A DNA stretch of 64,000 nt from Rhizobium sp. 32-5/1. Lineage in GTDB: Bacteria > Pseudomonadota > Alphaproteobacteria > Rhizobiales > Rhizobiaceae. Both the position numbers and the translations under genes were made by a program. The stretch lies in assembly GCF_029537235.1 (NCBI RefSeq), contig NZ_CP120638.1:62001-126000 (forward strand), in the 5' to 3' direction. Below are positions 16,281-29,801 of the stretch, one piece after another; positions within the stretch are counted from its first letter, which is position 1; every line of letters begins with the position of its first letter. The notes beneath the pieces were generated by a model, which searched no databases, was not told the origin of the DNA, and saw only the letters and a program-made list of their open reading frames with translations.

Positions 16281-16298
16281 CTGTCACAAAACTGTTAC
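16281..16298 (+). promoter_or_regulatory. PHO box upstream of pstS
   Basis: Two 7-base half sites, CTGTCAC at 16281 and CTGTTAC at 16292, repeat with an 11-base period. This is the arrangement bound by phosphorylated PhoB. The site is about 60 bases before the pstS start; a weaker half site (CTGTGAA) lies at 16268. Confidence 0.85.
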
Positions 16299-16357: not shown

Positions 16358-17392
16358 ATGAAGAAATACCTAGGAAGCTGCGCACTCGTCGCAATCATGA
16401 TCGCAAGTGCTGGCACTGCTGCTGCCCGCGACCAGGTCCAGATCGCCGGCTCCTCGACGGTTCTGCCCTATGCCAAGATCGTTGCCGAAACCTTTGGCGA
16501 AACCTTCCCCGACTTCAAGACACCGGTTGTTGAATCGGGTGGCTCGTCGGGCGGTTTGAAAGAATTCTGCAAGGGCGTTGGCCCTGATACCATCGACATC
16601 GCCAACTCCTCCCGCAAGATCAAGGATAGCGAAGTCGAAGCTTGCAAGGCTGCTGGCGTCACAGAAATCCAGGAAATCAAGATCGGTTACGACGGCATCG
16701 TCTTCGCAACCGACGCCGGCAATGCCGACCTGAAGCTCGAGCCGAAGGATCTCTACCTTGCTCTGGCTGCTGAAATCGTCGTCGACGGCAAGCTCGTTGC
16801 CAACCCCAACAAGAAGTGGTCGGAAGTCAACGCCGCTCTGCCGGACGTTGAGATTGCTGCCTACATCCCGGGCGAAAAGCACGGCACGCGCGAAGTCTTC
16901 GAAGAGAAGATCCTCGCTCATGGCTGCAAGGATACCGGCGCTGCCGACGCGATCAAGGCTCTGATCGCCGATGAAAAGGAAGCTGCTGCCAAGTGCATCG
17001 CCGTCCGCAAGGATGGCATGGCTGTTGATATCGACGGTGACTACACCGAAACGCTGGCTCGTATCGACAGCAACAAGAACGGCATCGGCGTCTTTGGCCT
17101 GTCCTTCTACGAAAACAACGCCGACAAGCTCAAGGTTGCAACCGTAAATGGTATCGTACCGTCGACCGAAACGATTGCTTCCGGCGAATATCCGGTTTCC
17201 CGCCCGCTGTTCTTCTACGTCAAGAAGGCACATCTCGGCGTTATCCCGGGTCTGAAGGAATATGTTGAATTCTTCACCGACGACCAGATGATCGGTCCGG
17301 ACAGCCCGCTCGCAGCCTACGGCCTCGTTGCCGCTCCGGATGCCGAGCGCGAAGAAATCCGTAAGGCTTTCGAAGCCGGCAACGTCATGTAA
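16358..17392 (+). CDS. pstS: Phosphate-binding periplasmic protein PstS
   Basis: 344 residues. N-terminal signal peptide (KK then a hydrophobic core, likely cut after TAAA near residue 23). Phosphate-binding landmarks: AGSSTVLPY near the mature start and ESGGSSGGLKEFCKG. Periplasmic capture subunit of the high-affinity PstSCAB transporter. Preceded by a PHO box and a GGGAG site, followed by a hairpin separating it from pstC. Confidence 0.95.
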   Translation: MKKYLGSCALVAIMIASAGTAAARDQVQIAGSSTVLPYAKIVAETFGETFPDFKTPVVESGGSSGGLKEFCKGVGPDTIDIANSSRKIKDSEVEACKAAGVTEIQEIKIGYDGIVFATDAGNADLKLEPKDLYLALAAEIVVDGKLVANPNKKWSEVNAALPDVEIAAYIPGEKHGTREVFEEKILAHGCKDTGAADAIKALIADEKEAAAKCIAVRKDGMAVDIDGDYTETLARIDSNKNGIGVFGLSFYENNADKLKVATVNGIVPSTETIASGEYPVSRPLFFYVKKAHLGVIPGLKEYVEFFTDDQMIGPDSPLAAYGLVAAPDAEREEIRKAFEAGNVM

Positions 17393-17489: not shown

Positions 17490-18972
17490 GTGAATACCTC
17501 GCTGATTTTGTTGATCATTTTAGTTTTGGGCCTCATCGGCTATGTAGCCGGACGAATGCGATCCCTGTCGCTCGCAGGCGGTAAGCTGTCGGCCCTGCAT
17601 TCCCGTCCCGTCTATTACGGATCCTATGTTGCGATCTGGGCTGTCGTTCCCGCCTTTATCATTCTTTGCGTCTGGCTGATCGCCGCCCCTATGTTCATTG
17701 ATAGTCTGGTACGCGCATCGTTTCCCGAGAACATTCTCTCGCAGGGCAGCGCGACAACCGAGCTTACTCTCGGCACCACGCAGTCCATGGCCGGTGGTAT
17801 AAAGCTGCTGACCGCAGAGGAACTGACCGCCGTCAAGTCGGGCACATCGAATCTTCGCGAAGTGCTTGCCACAAAAGGCATTCCGCTTGCCAGCGAAGCT
17901 GAGCCATTCATGATCGATGCCGCTGAAAAGCTGAACGGCCTTTCTGCGACCAGCCGCATCTTGATGACCGTCACGGTTCTTGCCGTCGCCATCCTTGGCG
18001 CGCTGTATGCGATGCGCAATGTTGGTCTTCGCTTCCGCGCCAGAAACCAGGTCGAACGCGTCATTCTTGCAGGCCTGGTGATTTCCTCATCGATCGCCAT
18101 TTTGACCACGGTCGGCATTGTCGGCTCCATGCTCTCGGAAGCCACGCGCTTCTTCAATATGGTGCCCGCACACATTCTTCTTCGGGACGGTCTGGGATCC
18201 ACGCTTCGCCGCCGCCGGTGATGCCGCTGCGGCGGGCCAGTTCGGCCTGATCCCGCTTCTCGCCGGTACACTCTACATCGCCTTTGTCGCCATGCTGTTT
18301 GCGGTTCCGGTCGGTCTCTTCTCGGCGATCTACATGGCCGAATATGCAAGACCGAGTGTCCGCGCAACGGCAAAACCGCTTCTCGAAATTCTGGCCGGCA
18401 TCCCGACCATCGTCTACGGCTTCTTCGCTCTGGTGACCGTCGGGCCGTTCCTTCGGGATATCTCCGCCGAGCTGAACGGTCTGGTGACCGGCGATTATAC
18501 GAGCTTCATTCAGGCGCAGAGCGTTCTAACGGCTGGTCTCGTCATGGGCATCATGCTGATCCCGTTCGTATCGTCGCTTTCCGATGACATCATCACCCAG
18601 GTGCCCCGTGCGATGCGCGACGGTTCCCTTGGTCTGGGTGCCACACGCTCGGAAACGATCAAGCGAGTCATTCTGCCGGCAGCGCTTCCCGGCATCGTCG
18701 GTGCCTTGCTGCTGACAGCCTCGCGTGCGGTCGGCGAAACCATGATCGTGGTGCTTGCCGCCGGTGTTGCCGCTCGCCTGCAGCTCAATCCTTTCGAGCC
18801 GATGACCACGGTCACGGTCAAGATCGTCAACCAGTTGACGGGCGACCTTGAATTTACGTCGCCGCAGACACTTGTCGCCTTTGCGCTGGGCATCACGCTC
18901 TTTGTGATCACGCTCTGCCTCAACATCTATGCGCTCTACATCGTGCGCAAATATCGGGAACAGTACGAATGA
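17490..18972 (+). CDS. pstC: Phosphate ABC transporter permease PstC; one frameshift in this sequence
   Basis: Inner-membrane permease subunit. The first part (17490 to about 18170) carries the N-terminal transmembrane segments and periplasmic insert. The frame is then lost at about 18165-18176 and continues one frame over with FFFGTVWDPRFAAAG and the permease core (IPTIVYGFFALVTVGPFLRD; ATRSETIKRVILPAALPGIVG). Unlike most shifts in this window it needs one base fewer or two more (near a CACACA-like stretch), giving about 493 residues. The stop overlaps pstA as ATGA at 18969. Confidence 0.9.
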
Positions 18973-20294
18973 CCGACATTGTCTCGCCCGTCCCATCGTC
19001 TTTCACCAAGACAGTATCTCCGGCCCGTCGCGACATTGGCATCAAGCGTCGCTACGCTGCGGAACGCCGCTTTCGGATGTACGGCATTGCCGCGATCCTG
19101 ACCGGCCTGTTCTTTCTCTTTCTGCTTCTGTGGACGGTTATCTCGAACGGCTACACGGCCTTTCAGCAGACGACCATTACGCTGCCGATCGAATTTTCAG
19201 AAAAGATTATCGATCCGAAAAACGAGCGTGCGGAAAATCCCGGCAAGCTGATGGCAGCAAATTACCCGCTGCTCGTCCGCGACGCCTTGATCAAGGTCCT
19301 GAACATCGATCCGTCCAATCGTGCGCTGGTCAAGCGCGCCACGGACATGGTTTCGGCCAGCGCTCGGACGCAATTGCGTGATGTCGTCGTCGCCAATCCG
19401 GCTGTGATCGGTACGACGGTCAACGTGTCGCTTTTGGCAGAAGGCAATGTCGACTCGGCAAACAAGGGCCAGATCGACCTTGACGTCGACGAGGCACGCC
19501 GCAAGGTCAACAATCAGCAACTCGCCTGGATGAAGCAGTTGAACGACGCGGGTGTGATGACCAAGGAGTTCAATACCGGTCTCTTCACCTATGGCGCTTC
19601 GAGCCGGCCAGAGGCTGCCGGTGTCGGCGTCGCGGCGCTCGGCTCGCTCTACATGATGCTGATCGTTCTGGTTCTTTCGCTGCCGATCGGTGTGGCCGCC
19701 TCGATCTATCTCGAGGAGTTTGCTCCGAAGAACCGGTTTACCGATCTGATCGAGGTCAACATCAACAATCTCGCGGCGGTGCCCTCTATCGTTTACGGTC
19801 TGCTGGGTCTTTCGATCTTCATCAATTTCGCCGGCATGCCGCGCTCGGCAGCCGTCGTCGGCGGCCTAGTCCTGACACTGATGACGCTTCCAACGATCAT
19901 CATCGCCACCCGGGCGGCCCTGAAGGCCGTTCCGCCATCGATCCGTGCTGCGGCCCTGGGGCTCGGCGCATCCAAGATGCAGACCATCTTCCACCATGTG
20001 CTGCCCCTCGCAGCGCCTGGAATTCTGACTGGCACGATCATCGGTCTTGCCCATGCCCTTGGAGAAACCGCGCCGCTGCTGCTCATCGGCATGGTAGCCT
20101 TCGTGGTCGACTTTCCAGGTTCGCCGATGCAGCCCTCCACGGCCCTGCCGGTGCAAATCTACATGTGGGCAAACGAAGCTGAACGTGCATTCGTGGAACG
20201 GACGTCCGGAGCCATCATCATTCTGCTGGCCTTCCTGATCGTCATGAACTTTGGCGCAATTCTCTTGCGGCGGCGCTTCGAGCGTCGCTGGTAG
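18969..20294 (+). CDS. pstA: Phosphate ABC transporter permease PstA
   Basis: 441 residues, long for PstA because a periplasmic insert of about 150 residues follows the first transmembrane segment, as in other alphaproteobacteria. The permease core is C-terminal: VAASIYLEEFAPKNR, AVPSIVYGLLGLSIFINF and the EAA-like loop RAAALGLGASKMQTIFHHVLP. Pairs with PstC in the inner membrane; the start overlaps the pstC stop. Confidence 0.95.
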   Translation: MTDIVSPVPSSFTKTVSPARRDIGIKRRYAAERRFRMYGIAAILTGLFFLFLLLWTVISNGYTAFQQTTITLPIEFSEKIIDPKNERAENPGKLMAANYPLLVRDALIKVLNIDPSNRALVKRATDMVSASARTQLRDVVVANPAVIGTTVNVSLLAEGNVDSANKGQIDLDVDEARRKVNNQQLAWMKQLNDAGVMTKEFNTGLFTYGASSRPEAAGVGVAALGSLYMMLIVLVLSLPIGVAASIYLEEFAPKNRFTDLIEVNINNLAAVPSIVYGLLGLSIFINFAGMPRSAAVVGGLVLTLMTLPTIIIATRAALKAVPPSIRAAALGLGASKMQTIFHHVLPLAAPGILTGTIIGLAHALGETAPLLLIGMVAFVVDFPGSPMQPSTALPVQIYMWANEAERAFVERTSGAIIILLAFLIVMNFGAILLRRRFERRW

Positions 20295-20307: not shown

Positions 20308-21123
20308 ATGAACATGATGTCAGAAGCAGCAGTTGAAAAGGCGCTGGACAAGAAGATGAATGACGTTTCCTTCAAGATGATCGGCAAGGACGTTTCGGTG
20401 TACTACGGCGAGAAGCGGGCGCTTTTCGATGTGAACCTGAACGTGCGACAGAACACGGTCACCGCGCTGATCGGCCCGTCCGGTTGCGGCAAATCGACCT
20501 TCCTGCGCTGCCTCAACCGCATGAACGATACGATCGACAGCTGCCGCGTCACCGGCAAGATCACCCTCGACGAAGGCGATATCTATGATCCGTCGATCGA
20601 CGTGGTCGAACTGCGCGCCCGCGTCGGCATGGTTTTCCAAAAGCCGAACCCGTTCCCGAAGTCGATCTACGAGAACGTCTCCTACGGGCCGCGCATTCAC
20701 GGTCTCGCCCGCACCAAGGCGGAAATGGATCAGATCGTCGAAACCAGCCTGCAGAAGGCCGGTCTCTGGAACGAGGTCAAGGACCGTCTACTGGAGCCGG
20801 GCACCGGTCTGTCCGGCGGTCAGCAGCAGCGTCTGTGCATTGCCCGCGCCGTTGCAGTCAGCCCGGAAGTCATCTTGATGGACGAGCCGTGCTCGGCGCT
20901 TGATCCGATCGCCACCGCCAAGGTCGAGGAACTGATCCACGAACTGCGCGCCAATTTCACGATCGTCATCGTGACGCACTCGATGCAGCAGGCGGCGCGT
21001 GTATCTCAGCGGACCGCCATGTTCCATCTGGGCAATCTCGTCGAGGAAAACGACACCGACAAGATGTTCACCAATCCAGATGATCAGCGCACGCAGGACT
21101 ACATCATGGGGCGCTTCGGTTGA
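20308..21123 (+). CDS. pstB: Phosphate ABC transporter ATPase PstB
   Basis: 271 residues. Walker [10 protein letters not shown], signature [14 protein letters not shown] and Walker [14 protein letters not shown]. Cytoplasmic ATPase driving phosphate uptake. It starts 13 bases after pstA, with phoU next. An extra N-terminal stretch of about 25 residues precedes the ABC domain. Confidence 0.96.
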
Positions 21124-21180
21124 TCTGGTCGATATCCACTCTCGCCAGTTTTAATCCGATTGCGGACTAAGGAAACAGAC

Positions 21181-21894
21181 ATGTCCTCCACACACATTAT
21201 TTCCGTCTATGACGAAGAACTGAAATATTTGACGCGCCGTATTTCCGAAATGGGCGGCATTGCCGAGCAGATGGTTGCCGATTCTGTCCGGGCGCTCGTG
21301 AACACCGATCTCGCGCTCGCACAGAAGGTCATCTCCGAGGATATCATTCTTGATGAGGCTGAGAAGCAGATTAATGAAAAGGCGATCATCACCATCGCCA
21401 AACGCCAGCCAATGGCCTCCGATCTGCGCGAAATCATGGGCTCTATACGCATTGCGGCCGATCTCGAGCGTGTCGGTGACCTTGGCAAGAACAATGCCAA
21501 GCGCGTGATTGCGATCTCCGGTTCGGGCATGCCGCGCCAGCTGGCGCGGGGGCTGGAGCATCTCGCCGAACTGGCGCTGATGCAGTTGAAAGACGTGCTG
21601 GACGTTTATGCGTCGCGGTCTGCGGAAAAAGCCAACGTCATCCGCGAACGCGACAACGAGATCGACGCGATCTACACCTCGCTGTTCCGCGAACTCCTGA
21701 CCTACATGATGGAAGATCCGCGCAACATCACGCCCTGTACGCACCTTCTTTTCTGCGCCAAGAACATCGAACGCATCGGCGACCACGCCACCAATATCGC
21801 CGAGACGATCTATTACATGGCAACAGGCGCACAGCCTGTCGGCGAGCGTCCGAAGGATGACAGTGCCAACACCGTCGGCGCGCCGGCCAACTGA
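21181..21894 (+). CDS. phoU: Phosphate signalling protein PhoU
   Basis: 237 residues from ATG 21181 with an AAGGA site. Two PhoU helical repeats, each with the E/D-rich metal motif (ISEDIILDEAEKQINEKAI; RERDNEIDAIYTSLFREL). A negative regulator linking Pst activity to the PhoR-PhoB two-component system. It lies between pstB and phoB as usual. Confidence 0.95.
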   Translation: MSSTHIISVYDEELKYLTRRISEMGGIAEQMVADSVRALVNTDLALAQKVISEDIILDEAEKQINEKAIITIAKRQPMASDLREIMGSIRIAADLERVGDLGKNNAKRVIAISGSGMPRQLARGLEHLAELALMQLKDVLDVYASRSAEKANVIRERDNEIDAIYTSLFRELLTYMMEDPRNITPCTHLLFCAKNIERIGDHATNIAETIYYMATGAQPVGERPKDDSANTVGAPAN

Positions 21895-21989: not shown

Positions 21990-22676
21990 ATGCTGCCAAG
22001 AATAGCAGTCGTCGAGGACGAGGAGGCGCTCAGCGTTCTCCTGCGTTACAATCTCGAGGCCGAAGGCTTTGAAGTCGATACGATCAATCGTGGGGACGAG
22101 GCGGAAATTCGTCTTCAGGAACGGTTGCCCGACCTGCTCATCCTCGACTGGATGCTGCCGGGGGTTTCCGGCATCGAACTCTGCCGCCGGCTGCGCCAGC
22201 GGCCCGAGACCGAGCGTCTGCCGATCATCATGCTGACGGCGCGCGGCGAAGAGAGCGAGCGGGTGCGCGGTCTGGCCACCGGTGCTGACGATTATGTCGT
22301 CAAGCCATTCTCAACGCCGGAACTGATGGCCCGCGTCAAGGCCATGCTCCGCCGGGCAAAACCCGAGGTTCTGTCTTCGGTCCTGCGGTGCGGCGATATC
22401 GAACTTGATCGCGAAACCCATCGCGTCCACCGCAAGAGCCGAGAAGTCCGGCTTGGGCCGACCGAATTCCGTCTTCTCGAGTTCCTCATGTCATCGCCCG
22501 GTCGCGTCTATTCCCGTTCCCAGTTGCTCGACGGCGTATGGGGGCATGACATCTATGTCGACGAGCGGACTGTCGATGTGCATGTCGGTCGCCTGAGAAA
22601 AGCGCTGAACTTTTCCAATATGCAGGACGTTATTCGCACCGTGCGCGGCGCGGGTTACTCGATGGAAGGCCAGTAA
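21990..22676 (+). CDS. phoB: Phosphate regulon response regulator PhoB
   Basis: 228 residues: receiver domain (1-120) with phospho-acceptor Asp53 in LLILDWMLPG and conserved Thr and Lys (IMLTARG, VVKPFS), then an OmpR/PhoB winged helix (PTEFRLLEFL; VDVHVGRLRKAL; IRTVRGAGYS). It binds PHO boxes such as the one at 16281. The partner kinase PhoR is not in this window. Confidence 0.95.
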   Translation: MLPRIAVVEDEEALSVLLRYNLEAEGFEVDTINRGDEAEIRLQERLPDLLILDWMLPGVSGIELCRRLRQRPETERLPIIMLTARGEESERVRGLATGADDYVVKPFSTPELMARVKAMLRRAKPEVLSSVLRCGDIELDRETHRVHRKSREVRLGPTEFRLLEFLMSSPGRVYSRSQLLDGVWGHDIYVDERTVDVHVGRLRKALNFSNMQDVIRTVRGAGYSMEGQ

Positions 22677-22691
22677 GGGAAATTTGGCGCG

Positions 22692-23387
22692 ATGGGAGCA
22701 AGGGTGGTCGTCGTAGATGACGATGAGACATTGCGTGCCCTGTTGCAGCGGGCGCTGGAGAACCAAGGCTTCTCTGTGACGCTGCTTTCAAGTGCTGCTG
22801 ATCTCGAGCGTCGTCTACGGCTTGCCGTTCCAGATGTACTGGTTGTGAACACGGTGCTACCCGGCATGTCCGGCATCGAGGTCTGCCGCCGGGTGCGGAC
22901 AACGCCATCGACCTATCGCCTTCCCATCATATTGCTTGTTGCCGGGGATGATCGGGATGAAGCCCTTGCAGGGCTTGCCGCCGGTGCGGATGATTGCGTC
23001 ACCAAGCCGTTTAGTGCTGGTGAACTCGTTATCCGGATAAAAAGCCTTCTGAGGCGGATAAACCCATCCCTGCTGGAACACATGATCAAGGTCGGTGACA
23101 TCGTACTCGACCGCGACTCACACCGGGTCCACCGACAGCAAAAAGAAGTCCGGCTGGGGCCGACCGAATTCAAGCTGCTCGAACTCTTGATGCGGTCGCC
23201 CGGACGCGTCCATTCGCGCTCCGAGATCCGCCTGTCCCTGTGGGGCGATGACGCAAAGGTCAACGAGCGCGCCGTTGACGTGCATATCAACCGCTTGCGC
23301 AAAGGCATCGGGCTCGAAAAGGCCGGCACCGTCATCCGTACCGTTCGCGGCGCCGGATATTCCGTTGGAGATCTGTCTTCCAAGTGA
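22692..23387 (+). CDS. PhoB paralogue with a degenerate receiver (Asp53 replaced by Asn)
   Basis: 231 residues, colinear with PhoB, which ends 15 bases upstream. The winged helix is intact (LGPTEFKLLELLMRSPGRVHSR; VDVHINRLRKGI). In the receiver the acidic pair (DD at 9-10) and lysine (CVTKPFS) remain, but the phospho-acceptor is Asn53 (VLVVNTVLPG, codon AAC) and the switch threonine is valine (ILLVAGD). It probably cannot be phosphorylated in the normal way, so it may be a constitutive or dimer-partner regulator. A tandem duplicate of phoB by position and similarity. Confidence 0.9.
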   Translation: MGARVVVVDDDETLRALLQRALENQGFSVTLLSSAADLERRLRLAVPDVLVVNTVLPGMSGIEVCRRVRTTPSTYRLPIILLVAGDDRDEALAGLAAGADDCVTKPFSAGELVIRIKSLLRRINPSLLEHMIKVGDIVLDRDSHRVHRQQKEVRLGPTEFKLLELLMRSPGRVHSRSEIRLSLWGDDAKVNERAVDVHINRLRKGIGLEKAGTVIRTVRGAGYSVGDLSSK

Positions 23388-23406: not shown

Positions 23407-24641
23407 CTACGCTCCGGCAGTGCTGCGGAGCGATGTCTTTTTATAGAGCCAGCCGATCATCGCAATTGCGGTAAAAGCTGCGACCGCAAGGACGCCCGCC
23501 AGCGTGCCTGCTATGATTGCTTGTTCGACCCCCAGGACCGCATCATCATCGCAAAGGCAAAGGGTGCGATCGCCGCGGAAAACTGCCGCGCTGCGGTCAC
23601 CCAGCCAAGGCGCGATCCATAGCCCGCACGACCGAACAGCGCGAGTGGCAGCGTTCCGCCGACAATGCTTGCAAGACCGGACCCCAGGCCGAAGAGAATG
23701 GCAAAGGCAACGACGCCTGGAACCCACGGACTGGTCGTTCGCAGCACCACGAGTGCCAAAACCAGCAAACCGGCGGCGATGATTGCAAGCGTCGTCTGCG
23801 ACAGGCGTTCGCCAAAGATCATGTTGAGCAATCGGCTGGCAACCTGCGACGGACCAAACAGGGTGGATACGAGCAGTCCCGCTGTTCCAAGGCCAAGCGC
23901 GGCGACCATCGGCACCATGTGAACGAGGATCGAGGCGAGCACGAAGCCCTCGATGCAAAAGGCGAGAAGCATGATCAGGAAAATCGTCTGTCCAGCGCCG
24001 CTTGGCGGAACCTGTGAAACGGAAAGCGCTTCCGCCAGTGCGGATTTCGGGAGTGGTTCGGCGGCATGGGCGCGTGACAATTTTCCTACCCAGACATGGA
24101 TCGGCAGGCAGACGAGGATATTGAGCAGCGCGAAGATCAGGTAAATGGCGCGCCACGAGAGGTGTGCGTGAAGCGATGCGGTCAGCGGCCAGAACAGAGT
24201 GGAAGCAAAACCTGCGATCAACGTCAGATGCGTTATGCTTTTCTGCGCCTTGGCTCCACCGACTTGGACAATAGCCGCAAACGCGGTGCCGTAGAGGACG
24301 AAGATCGATGCGACCTCCATGGCAACTAGCGAAATGCCGAGTGTCAGCACATTTGGTGAGATCGCAGCGGCGACAAGCGACAGGGCTGCTGCGAGCGAGC
24401 CGGTCACCATGAGCCGTCCGGCGCCGTAGCGATCAGCCCAGATGCCAGCCTTGGGAGCCAGAAATGCCCCGAGAAGTAGCGCGAAGGACAAGAGGCCGAA
24501 GAGGTGTTCGACGGAAACAGACAACTCTTGCGCCATGTCCGGTGCGAGAATGCTGAACGCGTAATACAGTGTGCCGTAACCGATGATCTGCGTGGCACCG
24601 AGCGCCCAGATCAGGCGCGCGGGGGCTGATCGTTCCATCAT
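23407..24641 (-). CDS. MFS transporter of the arsenic cluster; one frameshift in this sequence
   Basis: About 411 residues and 12 hydrophobic segments once one base is restored. The start at 24641 overlaps the upstream flavoprotein stop (ATGA); upstream in-frame codons overlap that gene. The frame breaks near the C-terminus at a C5 run (23529-23533): adding one base gives AMMMRSWGVEQAIIAGTLAG and a last membrane helix ending in YKKTSLRSTAGA. MFS proteins beside this flavoprotein are plausible exporters of an arsenical (ArsK or related), but the substrate is inferred only from context. Confidence 0.82.
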
Positions 24642-26056
24642 TCCGCCGGCTCCATCCGGCGGGTTTCTGCAGGCGTAGCACAGCCGCATCCGGATTTTCC
24701 GTCCACTTTTGCTTGCTGATCGGCAAGGCAGCAGGCGTCAGTGTCGGCCGGCGCCGGGCCTCCACAGCAACCGCCGGCCGAGACACCACTGATGGAGGCG
24801 ACAGAAGTGCTGCAGACTCCCGTTTCCGGCAAGACAAGCCGAACGTCACGCGCGGCCTGGTGATCGCCCGCGAGTTCCGCCACCACGGACCGCACCTGCT
24901 CGTACCCCGTCAGCATCAGAAAGGTCGGTGCGCGACCGTATGATTTCGAACCAACAATGTAGAATCCGGGTTCGGGCTGGGTGAGTTCTGCGATGCCGTG
25001 CGGCGGTACGGTTCCGCAGGAATGAAGATTGGGGTCGATCATCTGCGCCAGAAGGCGGGGGCATTCGACGGCGCTGTCCATATCCAGCCGAAGCTCGTTC
25101 AGCATCTCGAGATCAGGGCGGAAGCCAGTTGCGACGATGACCCTGTCGACAAGGAGGGAATGCTGTTTGTTATCGATCATCGCTTCAATCTCGACACCTT
25201 CGGGAGCGATCCGGATCGACCGGGCGGCAAACGGCGCGAGCAATCGCACATGTTCGCTTTCCAGTGCGTCCTTGGCCGCAAGCCCCAGATCGCCGCGCGA
25301 GGGAAGCTGGTCGTTCAACCCGCCGCCGAGCAGGCGGTCGATCCTATTCCTGCGCAACGCCCAGGTGATAAGGGTCGCCGGCGCCTTTTTCTTGAGCGCC
25401 ATCAGCGCCAGAACGGCATTGATCGCAGAATGGCCGCCGCCGACCACCAGCACCGAGCGTCCGGCATAATCAGCAGCGTCCCGTCCGTCAATATCGGGAA
25501 TGCCATAGGCGATCCTGTCGGACGCAGCCCTTTCGCCGATCACGGGCAGACCATCGATGCCCATCGGGGCAGGGCGGCCCCATGTACCGGACGCATCGAG
25601 AACAGCGCGTGCAGTCACGCCCATTTCGGCTCCGGTGGGATCAGTATATCGGATCTCGAACGCAGCATCGTCCCGGCCCCGGCTCGTGACCTTATCGAGC
25701 CCGTGCCGGCTGATGGAGGTGACCGTTGCGCCATAGACAAGGTTGGAGGCGATTGCCGGAAGCCGTGCGAGCGGCTCGAGGTAGTCCTCGACAATCTCAC
25801 GGCCAGTCGGGATCGCATCGTCTGCCGGTTTCGCCCAATCGGTCAGGGATAACAGATCGACGGCGGCTTCATCGGTGACATAGCGCCAGGGTGTGAAAAC
25901 CCGCACATGACCCCAGGACAGCAGTGAGGCGCCGGCCGATCGGCCACGCTCAAGGATAAGAGGTCGGATTCCGCGACCGACAAGGTGAGCCGCCGCGGCC
26001 AAACCGACTGGTCCTGCACCGATCACGGCGACGGGGAGTTCCGGATGCGTCTTCAT
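24638..26056 (-). CDS. FAD/NAD(P)-binding flavoprotein monooxygenase-like protein with Cys-rich tail (ArsO-like)
   Basis: 472 residues. A dinucleotide fold starts at residue 9 (VIGAGPVGLAAAAHL) and a second GxGxxS-type motif is VLVVGGGHSAINAV, typical of flavin-containing monooxygenases. The last 60 residues are cysteine-rich (GGCCGGP, DACC, GCGC), a tail that could bind trivalent arsenic. It lies between an arsR and an MFS transporter and is coupled to the latter. Similar genes in ars operons have been called arsO; the reaction is not known to me. Confidence 0.8.
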   Translation of the reverse strand: MKTHPELPVAVIGAGPVGLAAAAHLVGRGIRPLILERGRSAGASLLSWGHVRVFTPWRYVTDEAAVDLLSLTDWAKPADDAIPTGREIVEDYLEPLARLPAIASNLVYGATVTSISRHGLDKVTSRGRDDAAFEIRYTDPTGAEMGVTARAVLDASGTWGRPAPMGIDGLPVIGERAASDRIAYGIPDIDGRDAADYAGRSVLVVGGGHSAINAVLALMALKKKAPATLITWALRRNRIDRLLGGGLNDQLPSRGDLGLAAKDALESEHVRLLAPFAARSIRIAPEGVEIEAMIDNKQHSLLVDRVIVATGFRPDLEMLNELRLDMDSAVECPRLLAQMIDPNLHSCGTVPPHGIAELTQPEPGFYIVGSKSYGRAPTFLMLTGYEQVRSVVAELAGDHQAARDVRLVLPETGVCSTSVASISGVSAGGCCGGPAPADTDACCLADQQAKVDGKSGCGCATPAETRRMEPAE

Positions 26057-26108: not shown

Positions 26109-26447
26109 TCAGTCTTGTGCGGTCAACCGTACGTCGTCGCAGCGTCCATCAGCACAGCACTCATCGACGAGATAGCCGATCAGCGCGTTCATCGCCTTGT
26201 AGTTTGCCCGGCAGATCAGCGTCGTGCCGTTGCGTTCCTGGGTTACGAGATCCGCGTCAATCAGCTTCTTGCAGTGGTGCGACAAGGTCGAGCCGGGGAT
26301 ATCCAGCTTCTGCTGCAATCCGCCGACGGCAAGCCCGTCCATGCCGGCGCGCACCAGCATGCGGTAGATCCGCAACCGCGTCGGATTGCCGAGTGATTCC
26401 ATTTGCGAGGCGGCTATTTCGATATTCATGGAAATATACATATCCAT
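26109..26447 (-). CDS. arsR: ArsR-family repressor (first copy)
   Basis: 112 residues from ATG 26447; the frame is open to 26543 but upstream codons overlap the divergent operator. Winged-helix ArsR fold: LGNPTRLRIYRMLV, then LDIPGSTLSHHCKKLIDADLV recognition helix. C-terminal cysteines (ECCADGRC) could sense arsenite or antimonite. It heads the minus-strand operon with the flavoprotein and MFS genes. Start choice is uncertain (ATG 26429 also possible). Confidence 0.85.
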   Translation of the reverse strand: MDMYISMNIEIAASQMESLGNPTRLRIYRMLVRAGMDGLAVGGLQQKLDIPGSTLSHHCKKLIDADLVTQERNGTTLICRANYKAMNALIGYLVDECCADGRCDDVRLTAQD

Positions 26448-26500
26448 CAGCAGCGCCACCGTCAACGCCAATATTTGCGGCACAAGCCTGTTGACTATAT

Positions 26501-26528
26501 CCATATGTCCAGTATTCTCGACATATGG
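26501..26528. promoter_or_regulatory. Inverted repeat at the ars divergent region, probable ArsR operator
   Basis: CCATATGTC (26501-26509) and GACATATGG (26520-26528) form a perfect 9-bp inverted repeat with a 10-base spacer. The right arm covers the ATG of the plus-strand arsR. Position and symmetry fit an autoregulatory ArsR site; binding is inferred. Confidence 0.55.
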
Positions 26529-26857
26529 AACAGGAAACTGCAATTCTCGCTCTGGCGGCGCTCGCCCAGTCGACCCGGCTCGAAACCTTTCGGCTGCTGG
26601 TGCGCCATTCGCCCGATGGCCTGCCTGCGGGCGAGATCGCGCGGGCGCTATCCATCCCGCATAATACGATGTCCACCCATCTCAACATCCTGTCGCGCGC
26701 CGGGCTCGTGGCGTCCCAACGCCATAGCCGGGTGATCGTCTACCGCGCCGACGTTCCGCGCCTGCGGGAGCTGATGCTGTTCCTGATCAAGGATTGCTGC
26801 GGCGGCAATGCGGACCTCTGCGCGCCGCTTATTGCCGAACTCGAACCCTGCTGCTGA
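26525..26857 (+). CDS. arsR: ArsR-family repressor (second copy)
   Basis: 110 residues. Winged-helix: LAQSTRLETFRLLVRHSPDG, then IPHNTMSTHLNILSRAGLV recognition helix. The C-terminal metalloid site is likely DCCGG...LC and the terminal CC. It heads the plus-strand arsenic operon and probably represses it until arsenite binds. Distinct in sequence from the minus-strand copy. Confidence 0.9.
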   Translation: MEQETAILALAALAQSTRLETFRLLVRHSPDGLPAGEIARALSIPHNTMSTHLNILSRAGLVASQRHSRVIVYRADVPRLRELMLFLIKDCCGGNADLCAPLIAELEPCC

Positions 26858-26875
26858 AAACCGAAAGGTGTGCCC

Positions 26876-27403
26876 ATGACCAAGACGACCTTCAACGTGA
26901 TGTTTCTGTGCACCGGAAACTCCGCCCGCTCGATCATCGCCGAAAGCGTGCTGCGCAAAGATGGCGGCGGCAAGTTCAACGCATTCTCTGCCGGCAGCTA
27001 TCCCAAGGGCGAGGTCAATCCTTTCGCCCTCGAAACGCTTTCCGGCCATAATTATCCCGTCGATGGGCTGCGCTCGAAAAGCTGGGACGAATTCGCCGCT
27101 ACAGGTGCACCGGAACTCGATTTCGTCTTCACGGTCTGCGACAATGCCGCTGGCGAAGCCTGCCCGGTCTGGCCGGGACAGCCTATGACGGCGCATTGGG
27201 GCGTCGAGGATCCGGCCGCTGTCGAGGGAACGGATGCGGAAAAGCGCGTCGCCTTTGCCACGACGCTTCGCTACATGAAGCTGCGCATCACCGCGTTTGC
27301 AGCATTGCCCGTCGAAAGCCTGGAGCGCCTCAGCCTGACGGCGAAGCTGCGCGACATCGGGCAGATGGAAGGCTCGACAGCCAAGAGGGCTGACGTCGCA
27401 TGA
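26876..27403 (+). CDS. arsC: Arsenate reductase / low-molecular-weight phosphatase family
   Basis: 175 residues from ATG 26876. P-loop CTGNSARS (CX5R) near residue 12 is the active site of the LMW phosphotyrosine-phosphatase fold used by thioredoxin-type arsenate reductases; further on come FTVCDNAAGEACPVWPG and HWGVEDPA, typical of ArsC/ArsI-type proteins. It reduces arsenate to arsenite for export by Acr3. Overlaps the next arsC as ATGA. Confidence 0.88.
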   Translation: MTKTTFNVMFLCTGNSARSIIAESVLRKDGGGKFNAFSAGSYPKGEVNPFALETLSGHNYPVDGLRSKSWDEFAATGAPELDFVFTVCDNAAGEACPVWPGQPMTAHWGVEDPAAVEGTDAEKRVAFATTLRYMKLRITAFAALPVESLERLSLTAKLRDIGQMEGSTAKRADVA

Positions 27404-27834
27404 GCAGCCCCGTTGATATCATCATCTATCACAACCCCGATTGCGGCACCTCGCGCAATACGCTGGCGATGATCCGCAATGCCGGCATCGAGCCGCATGT
27501 CGTGGAATATCTGAAGACCCCGCCGAGCCGGGCAATGCTTGAGCAACTGGTCACCCGTATGGGCATCGGTGCACGCGACCTCCTGCGCGAAAAGGGCACG
27601 CCCTATGCCGAACTGGGTCTCGATAACAAGGATCTCGCCGATGAAGCGCTTTTCGATGCGATGATGGAACACCCGATCCTGATCAACAGGCCGATTGTCG
27701 TCTCGCCGCTTGGCGTCAAGCTCTGCCGCCCGTCGGAGGCCGTGCTCGATCTACTTTCCACCGCCCAACAAGGCGCGTTCTCGAAAGAGGACGGGGAGGC
27801 TGTTGTCGATGCCCGGGGCCAGCGGGTCGGATAA
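27400..27834 (+). CDS. arsC: Arsenate reductase, glutaredoxin-dependent type
   Basis: 144 residues of ArsC/Spx thioredoxin-like fold. Catalytic cysteine in [10 protein letters not shown] near residue 15; the conserved arginine follows in [14 protein letters not shown] and another in [21 protein letters not shown] second arsenate reductase of unrelated fold directly after the first, using glutathione/glutaredoxin as reductant. Confidence 0.93.
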
Positions 27835-27908: not shown

Positions 27909-28997
27909 ATGCACGCCGCTCACGCGCAGCCCGCCGTCCCAACTGTCCGCCTGTCTTTCCTCGATCGCTATCTGACGGTCTGGATTTTTGCCGCCATGGC
28001 GCTCGGTGTTCTTTTGGGAACCGTCTTCGAGGGGCTTCCCGCGGCGCTCGACAGCCTGTCCGTCGGCAGCACGAACATTCCGATCGCCATCGGGCTGATC
28101 CTGATGATGTATCCGCCGCTGGCAAAGGTCCGCTATGAGGAGCTGCATCTGGTCTTCGCGGATAAACGGATATTGGCGATTTCGCTTCTGCAGAACTGGA
28201 TCATCGGCCCAACGCTGATGTTCGTGCTGGCCATCATCTTCCTGCGCGATTACCCCGAATACATGACCGGCCTGATCCTCATCGGCCTTGCCCGCTGCAT
28301 CGCCATGGTGCTGGTCTGGAACCAGCTGGCGCGCGGCGACAACCAGTATGTCGCCGGCCTCGTCGCCTTCAATTCGATCTTCCAGATCCTGTTTTTCAGC
28401 GTCTATGCCTGGTTTTTCCTGACGGTCCTGCCGCCGGTCTTCGGCCTGGAGGGCAGCGTCATCGACGTCTCCTTCTGGACGATTGCCGAGGCCGTGCTGA
28501 TCTATCTCGGCATCCCGTTCCTCGCCGGTTACCTCTCGCGCCGCATCCTGACGGCGACCAAGGGGAAAGACTGGTATGAAAACGTCTTCCTGCCGAAGAT
28601 CGGGCCGATCACGCTGGCAGCGTTGCTGTTCACCATCGTCGCCATGTTCAGCCTGAAGGGCGGCGATGTCGTGCGCCTGCCGTTCGATGTGGTGATGATC
28701 GCGATACCACTGACGATCTACTTCCTCATCATGTTCTTCGTCAGCTTCCTCATGGCGAAATCGGTCGGGACGGATTATCCGCGCTCGACGGCCGTGGCCT
28801 TTACCGCAGCAGGAAACAATTTCGAGCTGGCCATCGCCGTTGCCATTGCCGCCTTCGGTCTGGCATCGCCGGTCGCCTTCGCCGCCGTCATCGGGCCTTT
28901 GGTCGAAGTGCCGGTGCTGATCATCCTTGTGCAGTTTGCGCTGTGGATGGGACGCCGTTATTTCCCGGCTAACAATCGGCGCGTCCCGGCAGAGTGA
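27909..28997 (+). CDS. acr3: Acr3 arsenite efflux permease
   Basis: 362 residues with about ten transmembrane segments. Acr3 landmarks: [20 protein letters not shown], the cysteine-containing [18 protein letters not shown] (the essential thiolate cysteine) and [19 protein letters not shown]. Exports arsenite at the inner membrane. Strong GGAG-type spacing after arsC and followed by arsH. Confidence 0.95.
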
Positions 28998-29093
28998 ACC
29001 GGCGGGAGGCGGGCAGGGACCTCGTTGCACCCGGCCGGAACAGCCCCGAGCCACGCGCCGCCGAACTGATTTGATCAAGCATTGGAGTCCCTT

Positions 29094-29801
29094 TTGACTG
29101 AACTGCCCGCCGCCCGTATCGATCTTCTCCATCAGCCTGACATGGAGACACTGCGACCGCCGTTTTCGACGCACAAGCCGCGCATTCTGATCCTCTACGG
29201 TTCGCTGCGGGAGGTTTCCTACAGCCGTCTGCTGGCGCAGGAATCCGGTCGCCTGCTCGAGCATTTCGGCTGCGAGGTGCGCATCTTCAATCCCGAAGGG
29301 TTGCCGCTGCCGGACGGTGCGCCGATCTCCCATCCGAAGGTGCAGGAGCTGCGCTCTTTGTCCGAATGGTCCGAAGGCCAGGTCTGGGTCAGCCCCGAAC
29401 GGCACGGCGCGATGACCGGCATCATGAAGGCGCAGATCGACTGGATCCCGCTGACCGTCGGCTCCGTGCGGCCGACGCAGGGCAAGACGCTGGCTGTCAT
29501 GGAGGTCTCCGGCGGATCGCAATCCTTCAACGCCGTCAACCAGCTGCGCATTCTCGGCCGCTGGATGCGGATGATCACCATTCCGAACCAGTCCTCCGTC
29601 GCCAAGGCCTTCCAGGAGTTTGACAAGGACGGCCGGATGAAACCATCCGCCTATTACGACCGCGTGGTGGATGTCTGCGAGGAACTGGTCAAGTTCACAC
29701 TTCTGACCCGCGATGCCTCGGCCTATCTCACCGACCGCTATAGCGAGCGCAAGGAAGATGCGGACAAGCTGGAACAGCGGGTCGGGTTGAAATCGATCTA
29801 G
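29094..29801 (+). CDS. arsH: ArsH, NADPH-dependent FMN reductase / organoarsenical oxidase
   Basis: About 235 residues from TTG 29094, which has a TGGAG site 6 bases upstream (TTG 29082 is an alternative). Flavodoxin-like fold with the phosphate loop [14 protein letters not shown] and the ArsH-specific [20 protein letters not shown] and [16 protein letters not shown]. Members oxidise trivalent methylated arsenicals. Last gene of the plus-strand arsenic operon. Confidence 0.93.

Follow-up and report, generated by a model that had tools for sequence, protein, structure and literature searches.

The window, a 64,000-nucleotide stretch of Rhizobium sp. 32-5/1 DNA, contains a phosphate operon in which phoB is followed directly by a tandem paralogue with a pseudo-receiver. 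With moderate confidence, the paralogue is interpreted as a phosphorylation-uncoupled form of PhoB that acts together with PhoB at PHO boxes and sets the level of the Pst operon by its dose. Its conserved features are Cys102 and the operon itself, not Asn53, the substitution picked out by an earlier sequence-only reading. That reading mentioned neither the invariant Cys102 nor the absence of phoR, the promoter type of pstS or the linkage to arsenic genes.

The tandem paralogue and its receiver

The canonical phoB, which encodes Asp53, is located at 21990..22676 on the plus strand. The paralogue, a 231-residue open reading frame at 22692..23387 (+), starts 15 bp past the phoB stop codon. The two proteins share 53% amino acid sequence identity in an alignment that is ungapped until the last few residues. 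PhoB is the sole other close match in the window genome (5.62 Mb, three contigs); the next regulator is 36% identical. Asp53, Thr83 and Tyr102 are presumably the phosphorylation site, the switch threonine and the switch tyrosine, as in E. coli PhoB. In the paralogue, codon 53 (22848..22850, +) is AAC and encodes Asn, codon 83 (22938..22940, +) encodes Val, and codon 102 (22995..22997, +) is TGC and encodes Cys. The first two replacements are exactly those that the sequence-only reading had described. The acidic pair Asp9 and Asp10, Lys105 and the GADD motif are retained, and Arg91, which we take to be a dimer salt-bridge residue of PhoB, is replaced by Ala. The loss of phosphotransfer residues (D53N and T83V), with the acidic pair and the lysine kept, places the domain among the pseudo-receivers.

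Both the receiver and the Trans_reg_C domains are found by Pfam, and the receiver is recognised as such by the Response_reg profile (85.5 bits, cut-off 30.2). The TIGR02154 model of PhoB equivalogs scores the paralogue at 249.1 bits, under its cut-off of 296.2, and the true PhoB at 345. The winged-helix DNA-binding domain spans 23064..23369 (+) and keeps most PhoB contact residues. In the predicted structural model the receiver superposes on the activated PhoB receiver (1zes) with a TM score of 0.94 normalised by the target, and the DNA-binding domain superposes on the PhoB–DNA structure (1gxp) with a TM score of 0.86. The pTM of 0.63 makes the arrangement of the domains unreliable; the model fits the activated PhoB receiver and the PhoB effector structure domain by domain, which says little about the state of the protein. 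Cys102 is placed in receiver strand 5 (residues 101–104 of the predicted model), not in the interdomain linker. This is the position of the aromatic residue three before the lysine, which couples to the threonine in the general receiver scheme outlined in PMC12632262.

Occurrence, descent and selection

The comparison set comprises 18 tandem paralogues from 14 genomes and four Rhizobiaceae plasmids. The paralogue is present in 4 of the 26 genomes of the window's genus, always behind phoB and with both Asn53 and Cys102. It occurs in 8 of 57 genomes of the genus g48, in 1 of 7 genomes of g103 and in the one genome of g149. The g48 count includes the divergent copy of Pseudorhizobium banfieldiae NT-26, carried on plasmid NZ_FO082821.1, which scores 321 bits against a PhoB maximum of 311 and was recognised by its place. 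The further plasmid carriers are Ensifer adhaerens E-60 and M8 and two Sinorhizobium americanum. The gap between phoB and the paralogue is 8–16 bp in 17 of the 18 loci and 103 bp in the remaining one (G442). The distribution is patchy: an even draw of 394 family genomes yielded the paralogue in five, spread over 4 of 109 genera, and an order-level draw of 397 genomes gave six with a match, the paralogue being carried by the window genome and G127. A scan of the genome collection with the window protein returned at least 80 loci at 45% identity or less, with no tandem orthologue among the matches listed, and none of 25 pattern matches in viral contigs was a relative. No paper on this family was found in a literature search of titles and abstract openings, a search that most subscription journals lay outside. 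Two sets of candidates were rejected. The single-protein search of family genomes recovered those five carriers and also G230, above the threshold, which has a plain PhoB at L134 and was dropped, and the matches in four g30 genomes score like PhoB (~305 bits; locus inspected in G054 only).

In a tree built from all 18 paralogues together with 14 of their 18 partner PhoBs, the paralogues lie on one side of a branch with support of 100/100; the tandem paralogues thus form one group of common origin. The distinction between Asp53 and any other residue requires at least three changes on this tree. The NT-26 and G442 paralogues sit on long branches and their placement is unsure. The G004 paralogue clusters with those of S. 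americanum (91/80) rather than with copies from its own genus, suggesting transfer.

Residue 53 of the paralogues is Asn in four, Ser in five, Gly in two, Ala in one, Glu in two and Asp in four. The expectation that Asn53 would be conserved in orthologues therefore holds for all four carriers of the window's genus and fails for the set as a whole, where Asn is found in only 4 of 18. The loss of the aspartate is nevertheless no private mutation, since Asp53 is absent from 14 of the 18 and retained in only four. Asn53 is thus one among several outcomes of lost constraint. Residue 102 is Cys in every paralogue and Tyr in all 18 partner PhoBs. Residue 83 is Thr in 4 of 18 paralogues and residue 105 is Lys in 16. 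Across the 18 sequences 14 of 120 receiver positions are invariant, and the only derived residues among them are Ala97 and Cys102. The dimer-face residues Leu95, Glu111 and Arg115 are found in 18/18, and Asp100 in 8/8.

In the DNA-binding part (positions 130–225) 42 of 96 positions are invariant. We take Arg176, Trp184, Arg193, Thr194, His198, Arg201, Arg203, Thr217 and Arg219 to be contacts to PHO-box DNA or sigma-70. The sequence-only reading had called this domain well kept. Eight of these residues are present in 18/18, and the ninth, Thr194, is lost in 17 of 18. Residue 200 also varies, being different in three of the window genus's four carriers. Together, these two changes suggest that DNA specificity may have shifted.

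All 18 reading frames are open. For ten chosen pairs, several with dS above 1, dN/dS was 0.03–0.16 in 18 of 20 domain values. The exceptions were the receiver of the S. americanum pair (0.60, with a dS of only 0.04) and one receiver value left undefined by saturation. These low ratios indicate that the paralogue is functional and under purifying selection. The mean identity of the DNA-binding domain is 0.80 among paralogues and 0.94 among PhoBs; the receiver drifts faster than the DNA-binding domain, and both drift faster than in PhoB.

A phoR-less operon with its own promoter type and arsenic neighbors

Upstream of phoB, on the same strand, lie pstS (16358..17392), pstC (17490..18972), pstA (18969..20294), pstB (20308..21123) and phoU (21160..21894, true start probably 21181). 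Shinella and Sinorhizobium meliloti records with coverage of most of the query match the window's pst DNA at 79.7–82.2% identity. As a separate observation, pstC is split across two reading frames, possibly by assembly error, and in the related loci of G023 and G010 both halves share a frame; the split reflects an indel from the assembly (completeness 87%) or else a transporter subunit that is broken.

The operon was compared across 17 paralogue loci (13 genomes and four plasmids, excluding G796, whose contig stops at this point) and 42 control phoB loci without the paralogue, comprising all 22 such loci in the window's genus and 20 g48 loci. A phoR gene is located upstream of pst in 39/42 controls and 0/17 paralogue loci, at least 1.5 kb before pstS being visible in the 16 paralogue loci with a recognised pstS. 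In the 35 controls with phoR and a recognised pstS, phoR ends 195–213 bp upstream of pstS. The control order is ppk2-phoR-pst-phoB-gcrA, that of S. meliloti is phoR-pst-phoB-gcrA, and gcrA (39/42) and ppk2 (37/42) of the control loci are each found in 0/17 paralogue loci. In the window genome ppk2, phoR and gcrA lie together at 1.68 Mb of contig C1, with the ends of phoR and gcrA 73 bp apart. The pst-phoB operon is absent from this place and is found near 0.08 Mb instead, with the paralogue. At that phoR locus (L122, ~1.679 Mb), between ppk2 and gcrA and without a pst operon, phoR shifts frame mid-gene. Elsewhere, the G442 locus (L183) and four controls (L209, L213, L221 and L227) have pstC and pstA only ~27–33% identical to those of the window and no recognised pstS; part of the transporter is swapped in these loci, whether or not the paralogue is present.

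No second PhoB was detected in any of the window genus's four carriers, in 6 of the 8 g48 carriers or in G127, so the paralogue there would work on the main phosphate system. Additional PhoBs are present in G810 and NT-26.

A PHO-box-like site, CTGTCACAAAACTGTTAC, is located at 16281..16298 (+), 59 bp upstream of pstS. A box of the type CTGTCACAAAACTGTTAT, with 2–3 mismatches to the consensus, stands ~80 bp before pstS in 16/16 paralogue loci with a recognised pstS. Among the controls, 3 of 38 carry such a box before pstS. Another 30 have one of their two best matches at about –120 to –150 (2–5 mismatches), and in the remaining five neither kind of box is among the two best matches. The PHO-box count for the entire window (5, with 3.8 expected) does not rise above the chance level, and matches before phoB and in the 4 kb behind the paralogue are only weak. 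The site before pstS is the only credible one because it recurs across loci. The three controls with the –80 box (L217–L219) are the three that lack phoR, ppk2 and gcrA. They seem to belong to the same class of operon without having the paralogue, and no significant remnant of it was found behind their phoB. In one of them (L218, in G329) the phoR-less pst operon with the –80 box, and without the paralogue, is followed directly behind phoB by a broken arsK. The shared promoter may reflect co-inheritance of one cassette rather than the action of the protein.

Behind the paralogue, on the minus strand, the window encodes the arsenite efflux MFS transporter ArsK (23511..24689; NF033733, 487 bits, cut-off 400), an FAD-type oxidoreductase (24638..26056; Pyr_redox_3) resembling a gene beside arsK on the Ensifer plasmids, and an ArsR-type regulator (26109..26543, start probably 26432; HTH_5 and HTH_20). 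These are followed on the plus strand by an HTH_20 regulator read as ArsR-like (26525..26857), a low-molecular-weight phosphatase family protein read as an arsenate reductase (26870..27403; LMWPc), the glutaredoxin-dependent arsenate reductase gene arsC (27400..27834; TIGR00014), the arsenite efflux transporter gene acr3 (27909..28997; TIGR00832) and arsH (29082..29801; TIGR02690). With the window ars genes as probes, ars genes were found within ~9 kb of 5 of 13 paralogue genome loci (G000, which is the window genome, G023, G173, G804 and G810) and of 0/42 controls (Fisher p = 0.0004, relatedness being ignored and the L218 arsK fragment uncounted). The same probes found no ars gene near the other 8 of 13. 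On each of the four plasmids the paralogue is followed by arsK, the oxidoreductase gene and the ArsR gene. The presence of arsK anywhere in the genome was rejected as a marker since it occurs in 67 of 80 and does not discriminate, whereas adjacency does.

Genes of the aio type are also found near some copies. Both Ensifer plasmids carry aioBA and aioR within 12 kb, and the aioXSRBA genes of NT-26 start ~8 kb from the paralogue. Of 14 genomes with the paralogue, 3 encode AioA: NT-26, G810, where it shares the contig, and G173, where it lies on a different one. None of 66 other genomes encodes it, and the window genome gave no AioA match. Phosphate transporters can also let arsenate into the cell. 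Because its operon sometimes lies beside arsenic genes, the paralogue may connect arsenic with phosphate uptake; the joint travel of arsenic and pst-pho genes is described in PMC3834237.

Mode of action and known systems

The gene order and spacing suggest that the paralogue would be made together with PhoB from a PHO-box-controlled pstSCAB-phoU-phoB transcript. A dimer of the paralogue, with itself or with PhoB, could then bind PHO boxes without PhoR, as the kept contact and dimer-face residues suggest. Its dose, and not Pi-dependent phosphorylation, would set the level of the arsenic-type Pst operon, adding feedback, positive or negative, to the control by PhoB. We infer the DNA target, the dimerisation and the action on pst. 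The spacing, the conserved contact and dimer residues, the selection and the promoter type support such an uncoupled PHO-box regulator. The sequence-only reading had placed a pseudo-receiver PhoB paralogue directly behind phoB, which is supported, the gene being kept by selection, and had proposed competition for PHO boxes or heterodimerisation, which would be plausible since most PHO-box-contact residues are kept.

Alternatively, Cys102 may act as a thiol switch. Arsenite or an oxidant, reacting with Cys102 alone, with Cys102 and Cys65, or across the dimer, would alter dimerisation and DNA binding and make the protein an arsenic or redox sensor. The fixation of this cysteine in 18/18 paralogues and 0/18 PhoBs while the phosphorylation site varies, and the arsenic genes adjoining a share of the loci, are consistent with such a switch. 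Cysteine-gated pseudo-receiver regulators also exist, namely RitR, HP1021 and relatives, as described in the accessible text of PMC5965902 and PMC12632262. However, a small residue at position 102 may merely abolish the Tyr–Thr coupling, Cys65 is present in PhoB too, and 8 of 13 genome loci showed no nearby ars gene with the probes used; a thiol switch is possible but unlikely. Its bolder form, which we hold still more tentatively, is that arsenic-type, phoR-less operons traded the phosphorylation switch for a thiol (Tyr102 to Cys), so that arsenite or an oxidant, not phosphate, would decide the occupancy of PHO boxes by PhoB-type dimers. If true, this would be a chemical sensor retuning phosphate, and arsenate, uptake under arsenic.

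It is improbable that the paralogue is a decoy receiver, which would bind PhoR or PhoB and lower PhoB phosphorylation with no need for DNA binding of its own. The receiver fold is kept in the predicted model, and PMC12632262 lists this role among the possible ones for pseudo-receivers that share an operon with a normal partner. However, the DNA-binding domain, unneeded by a decoy, is the better conserved part of the protein. An ordinary response regulator, still phosphorylated by PhoR or by another kinase such as AioS, is very unlikely, as Asp53 is missing in 14 of 18 paralogues, including that of the window, and Tyr102 is lost in all 18. Asp53 does persist in four copies, and the two Ensifer copies keep every phosphorylation residue, including Asp53, Thr83 and Lys105, except Tyr102; uncoupling is thus incomplete in the family. 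A decaying duplicate en route to a pseudogene, which the three or more changes at residue 53 and the patchy distribution (5/394) could suggest, is largely contradicted by the dN/dS values far under 1 in 18 of 20 cases, and by 18 open frames and DNA-binding domains ~80% identical between members, and is extremely improbable.

The paralogue bears on how phosphate control changes in arsenic-linked pst operons. It is also a traceable case in which a phosphorylation site was lost after duplication, with varied replacements, an intact parent adjacent and Cys102 fixed. The Ensifer copies, with Tyr lost and Asp kept, and the window copy, with both lost, provide a natural series on the origin and control of pseudo-receivers.

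Degenerate PhoB-like proteins occur in other settings as well. The arsenic islands of Agrobacterium 5A and pSinA, with PhoB1 and pst1, likewise couple pst-pho genes to ars and aio genes, according to the accessible parts of PMC3834237, PMC7533571 and PMC7965956. The window locus shares the ars linkage of these pst1/pho1 systems but not the nearby aioA. The pSinA island resembles the paralogue loci in having a second PhoB-like gene, after phoU. However, its PhoB1 is canonical (Asp53 and Tyr102), and the post-phoU gene (L248:6432-7094) encodes a different, more distant degenerate PhoB-like protein, 34% identical to the window protein. It has lost Thr83 and Lys105, and its receiver scores 30.0 bits, just under the Pfam cut-off of 30.2. 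A PhoB-like protein beside phnC on the NT-26 plasmid (L231:10331-10975) has a damaged active site and no receiver found by Pfam; it is 42% identical to the pSinA protein. Agrobacterium 5A gene AT5A_25615, listed after phoU1 in PMC7965956, is reported there to be up 5.7–7.9-fold with arsenite. It is presumably the counterpart of the pSinA post-phoU gene because 5A and M14 are reported as syntenic in the accessible text of PMC3834237. A damaged PhoB copy thus appears to have been present in arsenic-type pst operons on more than one occasion. Separately, an orphan PhoB-like gene adjoining phnCDE on the Rhizobium rhizogenes plasmid pC5.7d (L232:8001-8681) encodes Asn53 and Tyr102, another lone pseudo-receiver, linked to phosphonate uptake.

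The paralogue resembles PhoB (TIGR02154) in its domain layout, sequence identity, most DNA-contact residues and operon, but it lacks Asp53, Thr83 and Tyr102, falls under the equivalog cut-off and is made alongside a normal PhoB. RitR of Streptococcus pneumoniae, with an aspartate-less receiver, is likewise an OmpR/PhoB-type regulator with Asn53 and a canonical ancestor, as far as described in the accessible text of PMC4395418 and PMC5965902. RitR has one functional cysteine, and the paralogue shares the feature of a conserved cysteine absent from its parent. However, Cys128 of RitR is a linker residue and RitR has lost the GADDY motif, whereas the paralogue keeps GADD, has Cys in place of the switch Tyr and is encoded behind its parent. 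CmrT of Clostridioides difficile is also a pseudo-receiver regulator in one operon with a normal response regulator, but the CmrRST operon includes a sensor kinase, and the accessible text of PMC12632262 describes no link to phosphate or arsenic. The same text presents the Streptomyces pair BldM/WhiI, which is not a tandem phosphate pair, as an atypical regulator acting as a heterodimer with its partner; by analogy, this may also be possible for the paralogue. The paralogue belongs with the pseudo-receiver response regulators of the OmpR/PhoB type, a kind already known.
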